Part shown: positions 58,004-64,000 of the stretch, in pieces
Numbering within the stretch: the first letter of the stretch is position 1
Layout of the letters: the number at the start of each line of letters is the position of its first letter
Assembly: GCF_000973105.1 (NCBI RefSeq)
Contig: NC_015844.1
Location: 62,001-126,000 of the forward strand
DNA from: Zobellia galactanivorans
Lineage (GTDB): Bacteria > Bacteroidota > Bacteroidia > Flavobacteriales > Flavobacteriaceae
Direction: 5' to 3'
Length of the DNA stretch: 64,000 nt
The notes under the pieces: model-generated
What the model saw: the letters and a program-made list of their open reading frames with translations, nothing else
What the model was told of the DNA's origin: nothing
The model's database searches: none
Program-made: the position numbers and the translations under genes

Positions 58004-61000
58004 TTATTTAGACGTATCCGCTGCTTCCTTTTCTTTCAACACTACGGTTTGTACACCGGTAAGCGGTATGGCCCCTTCTTGGCCGTTATCGGTATAACTT
58101 GCCGTGATGACCATCACCTTGTCATCCTTGGTCGGTTTCGGTACAATACTGCCCGAAGCGGGAAGCGACTTCTCCTTTACCGAAGTGTCGGCCAAAGACA
58201 TGATGTACTCCACGATCTGTCGGGTTTCATCTTTGGTGATATTCGGATGCGCAGGCATTACTACCTCGCCCCAAACACCGCCACCGCCTGAAACGATTTT
58301 TTTCTGCAGGTAGGCCTTGGCTTTTTTGTCCTTTTTATACTTATCGGCCACAGCCATATAATTCGGGCCAATAGACGGACCGTTCTCTTTGTGGCACGTT
58401 TTACAGTCCATTCCCTGAGTAAGCGCCTTTCCTGTTACGGCTGCGGAAACCTGTTGATGTCCCAATGACATATTCTGCTCATCAAAACTTTCCAAATAAT
58501 CGACCGAAACAAAAATGTTTTTGGGGTCTATGATATCCCCATCGGCATCCTTGGCCTTCACCTCATATTTCACGGGAACCCCTTTTTCAAAAAACTCGGC
58601 GTTTCCTTCTAAAGCAATGGTCACTTCTGGTCTCGAATTTCCGGCCACTATCGTAATCATATCGCTTTTTACGGCATCGCCCTTATCGTCTTTTACTTCC
58701 ACGGAAATCCTATAATCACCGGCCGTGTCGTACGTGTGACTTATTTTTGGTTCAGTAGTTTCCTTGGTCTCACCATTGCCCAAATCCCACACATAGGTAA
58801 TAGCATCGTCTTCGCGGTCTCTTGCCTCTACCTTGGCATTGACTGTAAGCGGTAATTTCCCCGAAGTGTGATCTACGATCATATGGTCTATAATCGGTGG
58901 ACGGTTACCGCCATTGTATTCAATATAACTTAAAGCGGAATTCTCGTTTTGGGTAAACCAACCGCTACCGTATTCCAACAAGTAGACCCTACCGTTCGGC
59001 CCCATCTCCATATCGATCAGGTTATTGACCTTAATATCGGAAGCAAAAGGCTCCATTTTATATAAGGTACCATCTTCAAAGAAGGTAACGGCCTTCATCC
59101 AACCACGCATCCAATCGTAAATAATGGTTTTTCCATCGAAATAACTTGGGAGTCCCCCTCCATTGGGATACATATCGGAATAATAGGTAGGTCCGGCCAT
59201 GGCATTCCTTCCACCCGACCCTACTTCCGGAAATTCTTTGGAATCGACGTAAGGGTAGTAGATATAGGCCTCTTTTGCAGGAGGAAGCTCTCGGAGCCCC
59301 GTATTGTTCTTAGAATCGTTTATAGGCTTTTGCGGATCAAAAGTAATGCCGCTTTCACCGGTTTCGTAATCGTAATCTACATAAGGCTTGTTATCGGCAA
59401 TGAACAAAGGCCAACCAAAGTTACCGGCTTCCGTTGCACGGTTCATCTCATCGTACCCCTTTGGCCCTCGTTTTTCAAACTGATCATTACGCGCATCAGG
59501 TCCGACCTCGCCCCAGTACAGGGTACTGTTTTTCTGGTCTACCGAAATACGATAAGGGTTTCTATGCCCCATCGTGTAGATTTCGGGCCTTGCCTTTTCA
59601 GTTCCCTTAGCGAACAAATTGCCTTCAGGAATATCATAACTACCGTCTTCGTTCACTTTTATACGAATAATTTTCCCTCTTAGGTCATTGGTGTTACCGG
59701 AAGACCTGCGGGCATCATATTGCTCATGTCCAGGGATGTCGTTTAAAGGCGCATAACCATTGTTCACATACTTTACCCCTTTTTCGTTAAAAGGAGTAGA
59801 ATTGTCTCCCGTTGAAAGGTAGAGCAATTTATCAGGACCAAAGGCAATGGAGCCTCCGGTATGGCAGCAGATTTCACGCTGTGAATCCACTTCCAAAATA
59901 ACCTGCTCCGAAGCTAGGTCGAAAACCCCGTCTTTGTATTGAAAACGAGACAGGCGGTTCACCCATTTATCTCCCGTAGGGGAATAATAAAGGTAAATCC
60001 AATGGTTTGTGGCAAAATCAGGGTCTTTCTGGAGTCCCATTAACCCTTCTTCCGCATTGACCCCCGGGGTGTTCAAGGTTTTATAATAGACATCCAACGA
60101 AGCCACTTCCTTGAGTTCTTGGCTAGCATCGCTATACAGGAGTACCTGTCCGCGACGTTGCGCGATCAATACATCGTTATTAGGTAATACGGCCATTTCG
60201 GTAGGCTCAAAAAACTCGCCTACACTCAATTGTTTTTTGGTGAAACGGTCTAAATCGGGTGGTATCTGTGTAGTAGCCTTTGAATAGTCCAATACTTTGT
60301 TTTCACCGATGGCATAATTGATTCCTCCCAGTAAATGTTTTAAGAAAAGTTCTTCAGAAAAGGTTTCATCGGTATGACCCGCACCTGTATAAAAGGCCCG
60401 ACCCCCATCAAACTCATGGTACCAAGCGAACGGATGGTAATCGCCGTTGGTGCCCCCTTCATAGGTTGATTCATCTACGGTCATTACGACGTGTACATCA
60501 GGATTGATCTTGTTGTAATTGTAGATTTCATCGCTTCTATGCCAAACGGAGTCGGTAAAAAATTCCGTTGCCGCAAAGTTTTTATCGGTAATGATAAAAT
60601 CGGCCTCTGGTGTCCCTTTGGGGTGACTTGCAAACTGAGCCCCCACCAGTTTGGTGTACCAGCCCCAGTCGTACTCGGTATCGGCTGCAGCGTGTATGCC
60701 TACAAAACCGCCACCGGCCTGAATATAACGCTCAAAAGAAGCTTCTTGCTTGGCATCCAGTACATTCAGAGTGGTGCTCAAAAAGATAATTGCGGAATAC
60801 TGCTTTAAATTGTCTTCATTAAAAAGTTCCGAATTTTTTGTGGTATCGACCTGAAAGCCGTTTTCTGCGCCCAACTTTTGAATGGCGGCAATACCGGCAG
60901 GTATCGATTTGTGGTGCCAGCCCGAGGTCTTTGAAAAAACCAAAACTTTAGGTTTACCCTCTCTTTTTTGGCTTCCATCACCACAAGCGGCAAGGATCAG

Positions 61001-61039
61001 TCCTACCATAAGGACTAAAATGGATACTGTTTTCTTCAT
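58004..61039 (-). CDS. ThuA / PQQ-type sugar dehydrogenase-like / PKD / cytochrome c lipoprotein
   Basis: The ATG at 61039 gives MKKTVSILVLMVGLILAAC, a lipoprotein signal with Cys 19, and 1011 residues. Domains in order: ThuA-type Rossmann domain (about 30-260; VLVFSKTSGWHHKSIPAGI, GGFVGIHAAADTEYDWGWY); six-bladed GSDH/PQQ-like propeller (about 285-705; ICCHTGGSIAFGPDKLLYLS, DLRGKIIRIKV, YTMGHRNPYRISVD); PKD domain (about 730-815); class I cytochrome c (about 870-960; CKTCH near 879-883 and the Met ligand in VMPAHP). The layout suggests a cell-surface or periplasmic carbohydrate oxidation enzyme that hands electrons to its own heme. The cofactor of the propeller is inferred only. Confidence 0.9.
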   Translation of the reverse strand: MKKTVSILVLMVGLILAACGDGSQKREGKPKVLVFSKTSGWHHKSIPAGIAAIQKLGAENGFQVDTTKNSELFNEDNLKQYSAIIFLSTTLNVLDAKQEASFERYIQAGGGFVGIHAAADTEYDWGWYTKLVGAQFASHPKGTPEADFIITDKNFAATEFFTDSVWHRSDEIYNYNKINPDVHVVMTVDESTYEGGTNGDYHPFAWYHEFDGGRAFYTGAGHTDETFSEELFLKHLLGGINYAIGENKVLDYSKATTQIPPDLDRFTKKQLSVGEFFEPTEMAVLPNNDVLIAQRRGQVLLYSDASQELKEVASLDVYYKTLNTPGVNAEEGLMGLQKDPDFATNHWIYLYYSPTGDKWVNRLSRFQYKDGVFDLASEQVILEVDSQREICCHTGGSIAFGPDKLLYLSTGDNSTPFNEKGVKYVNNGYAPLNDIPGHEQYDARRSSGNTNDLRGKIIRIKVNEDGSYDIPEGNLFAKGTEKARPEIYTMGHRNPYRISVDQKNSTLYWGEVGPDARNDQFEKRGPKGYDEMNRATEAGNFGWPLFIADNKPYVDYDYETGESGITFDPQKPINDSKNNTGLRELPPAKEAYIYYPYVDSKEFPEVGSGGRNAMAGPTYYSDMYPNGGGLPSYFDGKTIIYDWMRGWMKAVTFFEDGTLYKMEPFASDIKVNNLIDMEMGPNGRVYLLEYGSGWFTQNENSALSYIEYNGGNRPPIIDHMIVDHTSGKLPLTVNAKVEARDREDDAITYVWDLGNGETKETTEPKISHTYDTAGDYRISVEVKDDKGDAVKSDMITIVAGNSRPEVTIALEGNAEFFEKGVPVKYEVKAKDADGDIIDPKNIFVSVDYLESFDEQNMSLGHQQVSAAVTGKALTQGMDCKTCHKENGPSIGPNYMAVADKYKKDKKAKAYLQKKIVSGGGGVWGEVVMPAHPNITKDETRQIVEYIMSLADTSVKEKSLPASGSIVPKPTKDDKVMVITASYTDNGQEGAIPLTGVQTVVLKEKEAADTSK

Positions 61040-61218
61040 AAATGAAATGCTTGACTTATTTGGTTTAGTTTGAAACAAGTTTTAAATGTAAGGATTAGCT
61101 TTCTAATCGCCCAAAAGGAAGTGTTAGAAATACAATTTTGGGAAAATATTAATACAGTTTGACCATGATTTTATACTAACTTGAAAATTCAGATTACTTT
61201 ATTAAATAAAAAAATACG

Positions 61219-61812
61219 ATGAACGACCAACATGACTATTGGACGCAACGGTACAAAGAAAACAATACGGGATGGGATATCGGCTACCCCTCTACCCCCA
61301 TAAAGACCTACGTTGACCAACTTACCGACAAAAACCTTTCTATTTTAATACCCGGGGCCGGAAATGCCTATGAAGCAGAATACCTTTGGAAAGAAGGTTT
61401 TAAGAATGTTTTTGTGATGGACGTCTCGGAAATACCTTTAGAACATTTTCTCAATAGAAATCCCGATTTCCCCAAAGCACAATTGCTACAGGAAAACTTC
61501 TTTGAACACCAAGGGCAATACGATCTTATTCTTGAGCAAACCTTTTTCTGTTCATTCCCTCCTACCGACGATAATCGCAATGCCTATGCACGGCAAATGG
61601 CCAAACTTTTAAAACCCAAGGGGAAACTGGTAGGCCTTTGGTTCGATATTCCCCTGACAGGAGATATGGAAAAACGTCCTTTTGGCGGCTCTAAAGAACT
61701 ATACCTGAACCACCTAAACCCTTTCTTCAAGACAACCACTTTTACCCGATGCTACAACTCGATAGGCCCAAGAGCGGATAACGAGCTCTTTGGTATTTTT
61801 GTAAAAAAGTAA
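61219..61812 (+). CDS. TPMT-family SAM methyltransferase (thiol/halide type)
   Basis: A 197-residue cytoplasmic methyltransferase. The N-terminus has DYWTQRYKENNTGWDIGYPS, the W-x-x-GWDxG lid block of the thiopurine/halide methyltransferase family; then the SAM loop LIPGAGNAYEAEYLW, the acidic strand VMDVSE, the active-site strand LEQTFFCSFPP and the late block RPFGGSKELYLNHL. In plants this family (HOL/HMT) makes methyl halides and methylates hydrosulfide or thiols; in bacteria TPMT methylates selenium or tellurium species and thiols. The acceptor here is unknown. It is monocistronic between the ThuA protein and the copper-type cluster. Confidence 0.85.
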   Translation: MNDQHDYWTQRYKENNTGWDIGYPSTPIKTYVDQLTDKNLSILIPGAGNAYEAEYLWKEGFKNVFVMDVSEIPLEHFLNRNPDFPKAQLLQENFFEHQGQYDLILEQTFFCSFPPTDDNRNAYARQMAKLLKPKGKLVGLWFDIPLTGDMEKRPFGGSKELYLNHLNPFFKTTTFTRCYNSIGPRADNELFGIFVKK

Positions 61813-61920
61813 ACTACCTCGGGGCATTTAATCTCGATTATCGAGTAAAATATCTCGTACGAAGACTTTTATATGGTATTGCCGTAACCACAAAAACGAT
61901 TCTTTTTGACAAATTCTATT

Positions 61921-61949
61921 TTGTCTAAAGGAAAAAGAAAGTATTTTTG
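61921..61949 (+). promoter_or_regulatory. promoter of the copper-type cluster
   Basis: TTG (61921-61923), an 18-base spacer and TATTTTTG (61942-61949) fit the Bacteroidota promoter. The -7 box ends only four bases before the ATG at 61954, so the transcript would be nearly or fully leaderless if this start is right. Confidence 0.5.
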
Positions 61950-61953
61950 CCGA

Positions 61954-62331
61954 ATGAAACAGTACGTAGTGCTTTTCGTGACGTTTATAATGATGGTCAA
62001 ACCACTTTGGCCAGTAGCGGAATATATCGCCAACTACGACTATATCAAAAACGTACTTTGCGAGAACCGAGACAAACCGATGCTTCATTGTGACGGTAAA
62101 TGTTACTTGGCCAAACAACTCGCCAAAGAATCCGAAGAAAATAGTAAAAACCCTTTTGGGGAAAAACAGGCGAAAGTAGAAATACAGCCCGTTGTTTTCT
62201 TTCAATCCCTATTACCAATAGAATTTGGTTTCGATACCGATATTCCTTCGATCAAAAACTACAAAGTTGAATCGAATTTAATTTCCCTTCTTTTAACTTC
62301 CGACATATCGGAGCCGCCCGAGTGCGCATAA
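61954..62331 (+). CDS. small membrane-anchored protein with Cys motif, possible metal handling
   Basis: The ATG at 61954 gives a 125-residue protein; an open frame continues upstream but would cross the promoter. An N-terminal hydrophobic segment (about residues 4-22) is followed by NVLCENRDKPMLHCDGKCYL, with Cys 36, 46 and 50 plus His 45, then a charged stretch and a C-terminal hydrophobic stretch. From memory, similar short proteins with a C-x9-C-x3-C pattern are widespread in Bacteroidota, often near metal-related genes, and have no assigned role. The next same-strand genes are MbnP- and MbnH-like, which suggests copper or another soft metal; this is inference. Confidence 0.7.
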   Translation: MKQYVVLFVTFIMMVKPLWPVAEYIANYDYIKNVLCENRDKPMLHCDGKCYLAKQLAKESEENSKNPFGEKQAKVEIQPVVFFQSLLPIEFGFDTDIPSIKNYKVESNLISLLLTSDISEPPECA

Positions 62332-62544
62332 GGTCTTTCCTTGGAAAATAGCTACGCCAAACTGTATCCTAAATCGAACAGGGCGGGCATTTCCCTTTAC
62401 TAAATCGACAGGTTTTTCCTTTTTTAGGATATAAACCCTTGTCACTCAAATAAAATACAACATTCGAATGGGTTTTGGTATGCCTAGAACACATAGCATC
62501 AACATAAGCTGTTAGGTCTACCGTCCCTCAAAAAATATTTATCC

Positions 62545-63348
62545 ATGAAACATTCTTTATTGGCCCTTTCGGCCCTATTCGCCCTTTTTATGACCTCTTG
62601 TTCAAACGATGACGACATGAGCGATGACGATGCCCTAACAGGAAGCGGTGAAATCTCAATAAAATTCGATAATGGTTACAATGGTAACGACCTAGTATTA
62701 GGCGTCGAAAACGCGGCCAATGCCAATGGTGAAAAGATTACCATCAACCGTTTCAACTACATCATCAGCAACGTAAGGTTTGTCAACAAAGACGGTGAAG
62801 AGTACGCTTACGATAAAGACAATAGCTATTTTATCATCAGCCAAGAAGAAGAGGAAGACCAAATAGAACTTGACGATATCCCTGCCGGCGAATACACAAC
62901 CTTGAAATTCGGTGTTGGTGTCGATCAAGAAAAATATCTTCAAGGTTCCGAAGGACAAGGCGATTTCCTCGTCGAGGCCGAAGAGAACAACATGATGTGG
63001 TCATGGCAAGCAGGTTATAAATTCTTGAACTTTGAAGGCACCTTTACATCGGAAAGCATTACCGAGGCGACGGAATTTAAGATTCATATGGGCAGCCACG
63101 GCTCAAGTCTTGACAACTACAAGGAAGTCGTTTTACAACTACCGATGAATGTTCGTGTAAGTGATGAGATCGACTCGAATATCCACTTAAAGATAGACGC
63201 CTCAAAAATATTGGCAGGGGCCACCAACAGTATTTCACTTACCGAAAAGCAGGTGATTATGGTCGATGCCGAAAAATCGCCTCAAATAGCCGTGAATACT
63301 TCTGAAATGTTCGAAGTAGACCACATTCACAACGGTGGAGGGCACTAA
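62545..63348 (+). CDS. mbnP: MbnP-family copper-binding lipoprotein
   Basis: A 267-residue lipoprotein (signal MKHSLLALSALFALFMTSC, Cys 19) with an acidic linker. The mature domain has strands typical of MbnP: GEISIKFDNGYNG, NYIISNVRFVNKDG, IPAGEYTTLKFGVGVD, the Trp block MMWSWQAGYKFLNFEG (Trp 152 and 154), FKIHMGSHGSS (His 181 and 185) and a His-rich end VDHIHNGGGH. In Methylosinus, MbnH oxidises a Trp of MbnP to kynurenine and the product binds copper(I). Which Trp would be modified here is not known. The gap upstream (213 bases) holds no gene I can support. The peroxidase gene follows after a stem-loop. Confidence 0.85.
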   Translation: MKHSLLALSALFALFMTSCSNDDDMSDDDALTGSGEISIKFDNGYNGNDLVLGVENAANANGEKITINRFNYIISNVRFVNKDGEEYAYDKDNSYFIISQEEEEDQIELDDIPAGEYTTLKFGVGVDQEKYLQGSEGQGDFLVEAEENNMMWSWQAGYKFLNFEGTFTSESITEATEFKIHMGSHGSSLDNYKEVVLQLPMNVRVSDEIDSNIHLKIDASKILAGATNSISLTEKQVIMVDAEKSPQIAVNTSEMFEVDHIHNGGGH

Positions 63349-63365
63349 GCCAAAAGCAAAGTAAT

Positions 63366-63396
63366 TGATAACCGGCCTTTATTCGGCCGGTTATCA
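63366..63396 (+). other. intercistronic stem-loop between mbnP and mbnH
   Basis: A 12-base perfect stem with loop TTTATTC: TGATAACCGGCC (63366-63377) with GGCCGGTTATCA (63385-63396). It starts 17 bases after the mbnP stop and ends 13 bases before the mbnH ATG. No T tract follows, so it may protect the upstream message or cause partial termination. Confidence 0.7.
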
Positions 63397-63409
63397 TAAC
63401 AAAGTTAAG

Positions 63410-64000
63410 ATGCAAAAATCCAGTATACTTGTAGTACTTGTAACCTTGGCGTTGTGGTCTTGTGATACGTCCTCGGATGACTACCAGACCGTTAACGAAC
63501 CCTTGGAATTTACAGTGCCCTCGAATTTTCCGGAGCCGATCTATGACTTAGAGGCAAATCCTCCGACTACCGTGGGTTTTGAGCTGGGCAAAAAGCTTTT
63601 CTACGATGGCCGACTGTCAAGCAATGGGTTTATCTCGTGTGGATTTTGTCATGAACAACGTACCGCTTTCACACACCATGGCCACCAATTCAGCCACGGC
63701 ATAGACGACCTCGAAGGGGTTAGAAACACCCCCGCGATACAGAACGCGGCATTTATGAAAGAATTTACCTGGGATGGCGCCACAAGCCATTTAGACCTAT
63801 TTCCTATAATACCCATTACCAATGAGGTCGAAATGGGCGAAACGGTTAGCAATGTAATCGCTAAAATCAAAAGCGACGACGAATACCAAAAACTCTTCGC
63901 TCTGGCCTTTGAAGATGAGGAAGTAAACACCGAAAACTTTTTCAAGGCCCTCTCCCAATTTATGGTGATGATGATTTCGGCCGATTCAAAGTACGATAAG
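63410..64000 (+). CDS. mbnH: MbnH/MauG-like diheme cytochrome c peroxidase, N-terminal part
   Basis: The gene runs off the right edge; 197 residues are visible from the ATG at 63410. A lipoprotein-type signal ends at LALWSC (Cys 18). The first heme motif is CGFCH (residues 77-81), preceded by ELGKKLFYDGRLSSNGFIS, the standard opening of the CcpA/MauG family, and followed by VRNTPAIQNAAFMKEFTWDG. The second heme lies beyond the window. In MbnP/MbnH pairs the diheme enzyme reaches a bis-Fe(IV) state and oxidises a Trp of MbnP. Adjacency to mbnP with no other gene between supports that assignment over a plain peroxidase. Confidence 0.82.
   Translation, partial: MQKSSILVVLVTLALWSCDTSSDDYQTVNEPLEFTVPSNFPEPIYDLEANPPTTVGFELGKKLFYDGRLSSNGFISCGFCHEQRTAFTHHGHQFSHGIDDLEGVRNTPAIQNAAFMKEFTWDGATSHLDLFPIIPITNEVEMGETVSNVIAKIKSDDEYQKLFALAFEDEEVNTENFFKALSQFMVMMISADSKYDK

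Follow-up and report, generated by a model that had tools for sequence, protein, structure and literature searches.

Near the end of the 64,000-nucleotide (nt) stretch of Zobellia galactanivorans DNA analysed here (the window; bases 62001-126000 of a 5,521,712-base genome), a 125-amino-acid (aa) open reading frame (ORF) with a cysteine (Cys) motif precedes mbnP and mbnH, which encode an MbnP-family lipoprotein and a di-heme enzyme. We consider it likely that this ORF encodes a regulatory leader peptide, one able to sense copper during its own synthesis, and that leader, mbnP, mbnH and a gene for an outer-membrane barrel form one operon with the leader as its first gene. This reading draws on gene order, family membership, the conservation pattern, a fixed spacing between two motifs, the position of a promoter box and copper-type neighbours, all read directly from the sequences. 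It has precedents in CruR and CutF, each a first gene with a Cys motif and a C-terminal proline-proline (PP) (PMC9426467, PMC9973294).

The elements of the locus, in window numbering, are as follows.

61907-61918, + strand: TGACAAATTCTA, a degenerate TGA-N6-TCA copy with 2 mismatches in its second half, 35 nt upstream of the promoter box.
61920-61923, + strand: TTTG, possible -33 element of the leader promoter.
61942-61949, + strand: TATTTTTG, a match to the promoter consensus TAnnTTTG; 4 nt separate its end from the start codon.
61954 (ATG) to 62331 (stop), + strand: Cys-motif leader ORF, 125 aa, proposed copper-sensing nascent-chain regulator.
62059-62103, + strand: stretch encoding the C-x9-C-x3-C cluster (CENRDKPMLHCDGKC), the putative metal sensor.
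62314-62319, + strand: Pro-Pro codons, three codons before the leader stop, proposed ribosome pause site.
62332-62544, + strand: gap of 213 nt separating mbnP from the leader; it has no TAnnTTTG box, and conditional termination is proposed to occur here.
62545-63348, + strand: mbnP, MbnP-family lipoprotein, 267 aa (W152/W154, H181).
62998-63006, + strand: WxW codons of MbnP (W152, W154), the first tryptophan (Trp) being the expected kynurenine site.
63410-64000, + strand: mbnH, di-heme MauG-type enzyme, 5′ part; it continues to 64456 in window numbering (G000:C1:126456).

Proteins of the Cys-motif family combine a conserved core, a variable linker and a nearly universal ending. Of the 158 distinct frames carrying the Cys core, a script kept 152 as complete members and set six aside, namely three true members whose PP its pattern missed, one without the PP (locus L091), one contig-end fragment and one spurious frame. 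The PP lies within the last 14 residues in 151 of the 152 kept frames, the exception being a non-member frame in antisense orientation, and by eye it stands a few residues from the end in 154 of the 155 complete members, all but L091. By comparison, a PP stands near the stop in 12 of 1042 other ORFs of at least 100 aa from the same loci, both strands included. Two to four residues follow the PP in 144 of 151 leaders, the residue before it is H, K, R or Q in 137 of 151, and the distance from the last Cys to the PP is held at 64-73 residues (mean 68.5, standard deviation 1.8, n = 151). Mean pairwise identity in a 37-frame alignment is 0.63 in the Cys core, 0.17 in the linker and 1.00 at the PP, and all three Cys (CxGxC plus a third ten residues upstream) are invariant in 37/37. 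The frames were picked by their Cys pattern, yet all 32 loci found by similarity contained such a frame. A hydrophobic segment precedes the core throughout (best 14-residue mean hydropathy at least 1.6 in 151/151), consistent with the label of membrane protein given to the ORF in an earlier, sequence-only reading of the window.

The family is present in at least 116 of 199 genomes of the taxonomic family (E ≤ 1e-3) and in at least 105 of 296 Bacteroidota genomes (E ≤ 1e-4). In the same phylum sample, DUF2946, the family of CruR and CutF, was found in 8 of 296 genomes at E ≤ 1e-3, five of them over the cut-off. The Zobellia genome holds three leader paralogs and gave no DUF2946 match. Searches for membership in any other Pfam or NCBIfam family returned chance-level matches only.

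Genes behind the leaders are predominantly of copper type. Neighbours were counted for 157 leader rows selected for the PP, which represent 153 distinct leaders at 140 of 141 loci (L091 gave none), using simple longest-ORF calls and cluster names taken from one or two representatives. The first same-strand gene behind the 153 leaders encodes an OprC-like TonB receptor in 50 cases, MbnP in 44, a YtkA-like lipoprotein in 23, a barrel in 9, a 145-aa lipoprotein in 8, another TonB receptor in 7, a second leader in 5, a YHS protein in 4 and others in 3; the OprC-like label comes from TIGR01778, the best-scoring model, although the scores of 123 and 233 bits fall short of its cut-off of 472. Members of a strict copper-type list (MbnP, MbnH, OprC-like TonB receptor, YtkA-like lipoprotein, PepSY_TM, SCO1 and YHS) stand on the same strand behind 138 of the 153. 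A looser list, which adds Met/His-rich or CDxCGC barrels and a second TonB receptor group, covers 150, the 15 leaders outside the strict list being mostly barrel-first or followed by that second receptor group. Within Zobellia, the three paralogs precede mbnPH-barrel, a TonB receptor with PepSY_TM, and an OprC-like TonB receptor, respectively. Where a leader stands directly before mbnP (44 distinct loci), mbnH comes next in 44/44 and a barrel of a single cluster in 43/44.

Viewed from MbnP, at least 38 of 110 matches in the 199 genomes lie within 6 kb behind a same-strand gene for the Cys protein, a lower bound because the set of leaders is incomplete or bounded by E-value. The proportion is at least 37 of 53 for MbnP matches of 110 bits or more and at least 1 of 57 below 110 bits; one MbnP subfamily is therefore linked to the leader and the other is not. 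The earlier expectation that the three genes co-occur across genomes thus holds for one MbnP subfamily.

TAnnTTTG is the Bacteroidota -7 promoter consensus, and TGA-N6-TCA is a palindrome of the type bound by CRP/FNR regulators. In the stretch searched upstream of the leader, TAnnTTTG occurs in 111 of 151 cases, compared with 193 of 3020 background windows. Of the 151 leaders, 68 have the box 4-5 nt ahead of the start codon, compared with 18 of 652 control genes, a set that includes many operon-internal genes; such a position would place the transcription start at or beside the start codon. Upstream of the box by 34-36 nt, TGA-N6-TCA is found in 43 of 104 cases (background 69/4530, at any position in 45 nt), which suggests that a CRP/FNR-type regulator may activate the leader promoter on top of copper control. 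Because only 3 of 145 gaps behind the leader contain a TAnnTTTG box, the downstream genes appear to depend on the leader's promoter. No intrinsic terminator was found behind the leader on the + strand of 61800-64000.

Two arrangements recur at individual loci. At L053, L056 and L058 (the same loci as L025, L028 and L030), leaders occur in tandem, in the order leader, 144-145-aa lipoprotein, second leader and mbnP-mbnH-barrel; the exact promoter box precedes none of the three second leaders and one of the three first leaders, and tandem leaders perhaps provide two-stage control. At L066, L068, L069, L070, L073, L078, L083 and L085, the leader is directly followed by a Met/His-rich barrel (MNMHM/HMHMHM) that clusters with the CDxCGC barrel.

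The two precedents differ in how copper acts. For CruR, copper ends an arrest at RAPP, after which Rho stops transcription (PMC9426467); the arrest was later demonstrated in vitro (PMC12992588), and the cruR-crtA-crpH operon of Bordetella is copper-repressed (PMC13038864). For CutF, copper prolongs the pause, opening a stem-loop (PMC9973294). Like CruR, a DUF2946 protein of Bordetella pertussis, the Zobellia leader stands first, carries a Cys motif and a C-terminal PP and is separated from the next gene by a long gap, and one of its paralogs shares the downstream order of the CruR operon, TonB receptor followed by PepSY_TM. Unlike CruR, it has C-x9-C-x3-C rather than CXXC, and its family has mostly H/K/R/Q before the PP rather than RAPP. 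Furthermore, 45 residues separate metal motif and PP in both CruR and CutF (PMC9426467, PMC9973294), whereas the family described here has 64-73, about 23 more, and CruR leaders belong mainly to Proteobacteria while this family belongs to Bacteroidota and lacks a DUF2946 match. With CutF, from the cutFOG operon of Rhodobacter capsulatus, it shares a signal-like N-terminus, CxxxC, a PP within the last 15 residues and a length below 150 aa; CutF differs in its 45-residue spacing and in the cutF-cutO stem-loop, for which we found no shared counterpart. Judged by sequence, the family looks like a distinct form of the known CruR/CutF-type copper leader, common in Bacteroidota where DUF2946 is rare.

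Parts of this picture have been approached before. A 2023 survey listed 5,334 CutF-like proteins in 29 clusters; Bacteroidota made up 40% of them when normalised and 19% otherwise, so its rules probably caught members of the present family, and its main text does not name MbnP (PMC9973294). MbnPH-like genes also occur behind DUF2946 leaders, according to the CruR authors (PMC9426467), and a 2025 EMBO J study reports copper-related RAPP/RGPP leaders as missing from Bacteroidota (PMC12992588). Our literature search found no paper describing a copper leader for MbnP/MbnH or for other Bacteroidota copper genes in its own right.

For the Zobellia operon we infer stalling, copper as the ligand, the sign of the response, the involvement of Rho, the transcription start and kynurenine formation. 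The mRNA would be leaderless, transcription beginning at or beside the start codon, and the hydrophobic N-terminus would direct the nascent chain to the Sec channel. With the Pro-Pro in the ribosome active site, the Cys cluster would lie about 68 residues ahead, past the tunnel and the inner membrane. By the reckoning of the CutF authors, the tunnel holds about 30 residues and the membrane crossing takes 17 (PMC9973294); at about 68 residues, the cluster would sit some 21 residues further out, in the periplasm, where it could sample copper. At low copper the ribosome would pause at the PP and expression of mbnPH and the barrel gene would continue. Once Cu(I) occupies the C-x9-C-x3-C cluster, the chain may fold or be pulled, ending the pause, and the downstream message would be lost in the gap, most simply via Rho as in Bordetella CruR. 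Of the proteins made, MbnH would oxidise the first Trp of the MbnP WxW to kynurenine, creating a Cu(I) site, and the barrel, with a flexible CDxCGC tail, would act as the outer-membrane partner.

The sign of the response could also be the reverse, with copper stabilising the pause and turning the genes on, as proposed for CutF-CutO; we regard this as unlikely, though as the strongest of the alternatives. The CxxxC metal motif does match CutF, and CutF likewise requires its export signal (PMC9973294). However, the neighbours are of uptake type (OprC-like TonB receptors, PepSY_TM) and in this resemble the Bordetella operon that copper represses. Two Zobellia paralogs argue specifically for a copper-off response: one precedes a TonB receptor and PepSY_TM, the order of cruR-crtA-crpH, and the other stands before a receptor gene that scores best, at 233 bits, with the TonB-copper model. 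The first of these receptors scores best as a siderophore type, which qualifies its likeness to the copper operon. Moreover, since no CutF-type stem-loop was found conserved in the gaps, a CruR-type outcome is preferred.

Several observations weigh against the ORF being a copper-sensing leader of this kind. L091:8400-9000 (- strand) is the only complete member without the PP, its frame apparently disrupted near the end. For 40 of 151 leaders no TAnnTTTG was found in the stretch searched, and 16 of 151 rows have an ORF on the same strand (at least 60 aa, some of them spurious) that ends less than 50 nt upstream; not every leader need therefore open its transcript. Membership of the known copper-leader family was also rejected, as 0/37 frames match DUF2946 (PF11162) at E ≤ 1. 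Gaps behind leaders show no more structure than other gaps within operons: their folding has a mean z of -2.40 (n = 125), compared with -2.82 in control operon gaps (n = 110 of 160), and a consensus structure across 11 aligned Flavobacteriaceae gaps (11 of 12 listed) contains no pairs. A Rho loading site should be richer in C than in G, and here the excess is small (C/G 1.16 versus 1.08, p = 0.008). The Cys core is conserved well enough that the finished protein might have a role, and our search of the literature found no copper or expression data for a Bacteroidota leader member, Zobellia or flavobacteria.

RNA-based devices were also considered for the gap. A conserved RNA switch was rejected: the gaps fold better than shuffled sequences, control gaps do at least equally well, and the aligned gaps yield no pairs. 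Because folding does not exceed controls and no consensus structure emerges, a CutF-type stem-loop is not supported, though the leader-mbnP gap may contain a different hairpin in each species. A rut-like, C-rich gap was set aside as well, the bias being weak.

The sequence-only reading saw in the Cys-motif protein a possible third partner of MbnP and MbnH. In this rather improbable view it would work with the pair as a finished product, either a small copper chaperone anchored in the membrane or a metallothionein-like protein. Its three invariant Cys, well conserved core and position beside copper-type genes (138 to 150 of the 153 leaders) would suit such a role, but a linker of 0.17 identity held at fixed length and an invariant PP at the very end would not, and members of the family also occur in tandem and stand before genes whose products differ widely. 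Because the family also precedes other copper-type genes, and its conservation suits a regulatory leader better than a chaperone, the idea of a third functional partner is not supported; the earlier view that a flavobacterium has an MbnP/MbnH pair, probably for copper handling, is. Least probable is a nascent-chain regulator sensing protein export or periplasmic disulfide formation rather than copper: the signal-like N-terminus and Cys cluster, known arrest peptides upstream of sec genes, predicted DsbA/thioredoxin-type leaders (PMC12992588) and Bacteroidota secDF leaders with a C-terminal NAP/NSP (PMC10987492) lend it some plausibility, but the genes behind the leader are mostly copper-type and secDF-like genes (by eye) appear in only 13 loci, further on, behind TonB receptor and YtkA-like genes.

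The Cys-motif protein, an MbnP with W152/W154 and a CGFCH peroxidase lie on one strand as first placed. MbnP matches PF20243 at 162.4 bits (cut-off 27) and is the only MbnP match in the whole Zobellia genome. Its predicted fold (predicted local distance difference test, pLDDT, 89.3) returned six matches below E 0.001, all of them chains of MbnP 7l6g. An MbnP profile found 7l6g among solved structures at E 0.0017, with MxWxW and HxGS aligned, and a single-sequence search of the PDB found it only at E 0.79. Alignments covered 35 (MbnP) and 32 (MbnH) of the 55 loci with MbnP. W152, W154 and H181 are invariant in 35/35 homologs, MxWxW is kept in 32/35 and a C-terminal HxHN in 27/35; the Zobellia protein ends in HIHNGGGH, in line with the His-rich end described earlier. 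According to a 2021 paper on MbnP, the first Trp of the WxW reportedly becomes kynurenine, with His and Met as copper ligands. By analogy, we would expect the Zobellia MbnP to bind Cu(I) after conversion of this Trp by MbnH. MbnP scores 54 bits against TIGR04052 (MbnP_like_WxW; cut-off 140) and has no Cys other than that of its lipobox, whereas the old name of the TIGR04052 family refers to four.

The part of MbnH within the window matches the CCP_MauG domain (PF03150) at 148 bits. The gene runs past 64000 and includes a second CxxCH, CASCH, the absence of which had been named beforehand as grounds for abandoning the assignment, and this motif and CGFCH are both invariant in 32/32 homologs. 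Among solved structures it comes closest to 6e1c (‘Di-heme enzyme’, E 2e-61), the MbnH of Methylosinus trichosporium, and its best NCBIfam model, TIGR04039, is reached at 219 bits (cut-off 363). Since neither protein reaches its NCBIfam cut-off, both appear to be divergent members.

Beyond the window, the 3′ end of mbnH overlaps a 339-aa gene by 26 nt, and downstream of mbnH lies the outer-membrane beta-barrel gene with its CDxCGC motif. Across the 43 distinct barrel sequences behind mbnH, CDxCGC stands near the N-terminus, its positions invariant in 35/35 aligned sequences. The closest folds to the barrel model (pLDDT 77.7) are FapF and COG4313 channels, from which it differs by a low-confidence, probably disordered N-terminal stretch that holds the invariant motif. 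The CDxCGC barrel is likely the outer-membrane partner of MbnP/MbnH and a better candidate for a third structural partner than the Cys protein. Compared with the pair of Methylosinus trichosporium, the Zobellia pair is alike in the MbnP fold, the MxWxW and HxGS motifs and the adjacent di-heme partner, and differs by the added leader and barrel genes. As the sequence-only reading had it, no methanobactin genes were noticed among the ORFs inspected, which span about 52 kb to 81 kb of window numbering and were read without a methanobactin profile. The MbnP/MbnH pair is conserved far beyond methanobactin producers (PMC3621798).

Two other genes nearby were noted by eye. Some 4 kb past mbnH, and on its strand, lies a Cu/Zn superoxide dismutase-like gene (L002:7569-8198; window numbering 68569-69198). 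Upstream, at 58004-61078 on the - strand, a 1024-aa lipoprotein appears to unite ThuA, sugar-dehydrogenase, PKD and cytochrome c-like parts in one chain.

If the leader reading is true, a common Bacteroidota family with the same logic as CruR and CutF, but with other sequence and spacing, would fill the reported RAPP/RGPP gap in this phylum. The family offers a direct test of how spacer length relates to the compartment sampled by a nascent chain, and its loci form a catalogue of putative copper operons, with the unnamed CDxCGC barrel among their products. More tentatively, and with the balance somewhat against it, Bacteroidota might run much of their copper uptake through phylum-wide leaders on leaderless mRNAs, each with a ruler of about 68 residues that keeps a three-Cys sensor just outside the inner membrane during the ribosome's pause at the terminal Pro-Pro, with each operon (MbnP/MbnH, OprC-like receptors, TonB + PepSY_TM) sensing periplasmic copper by its own paralog and the family having an origin independent of DUF2946.

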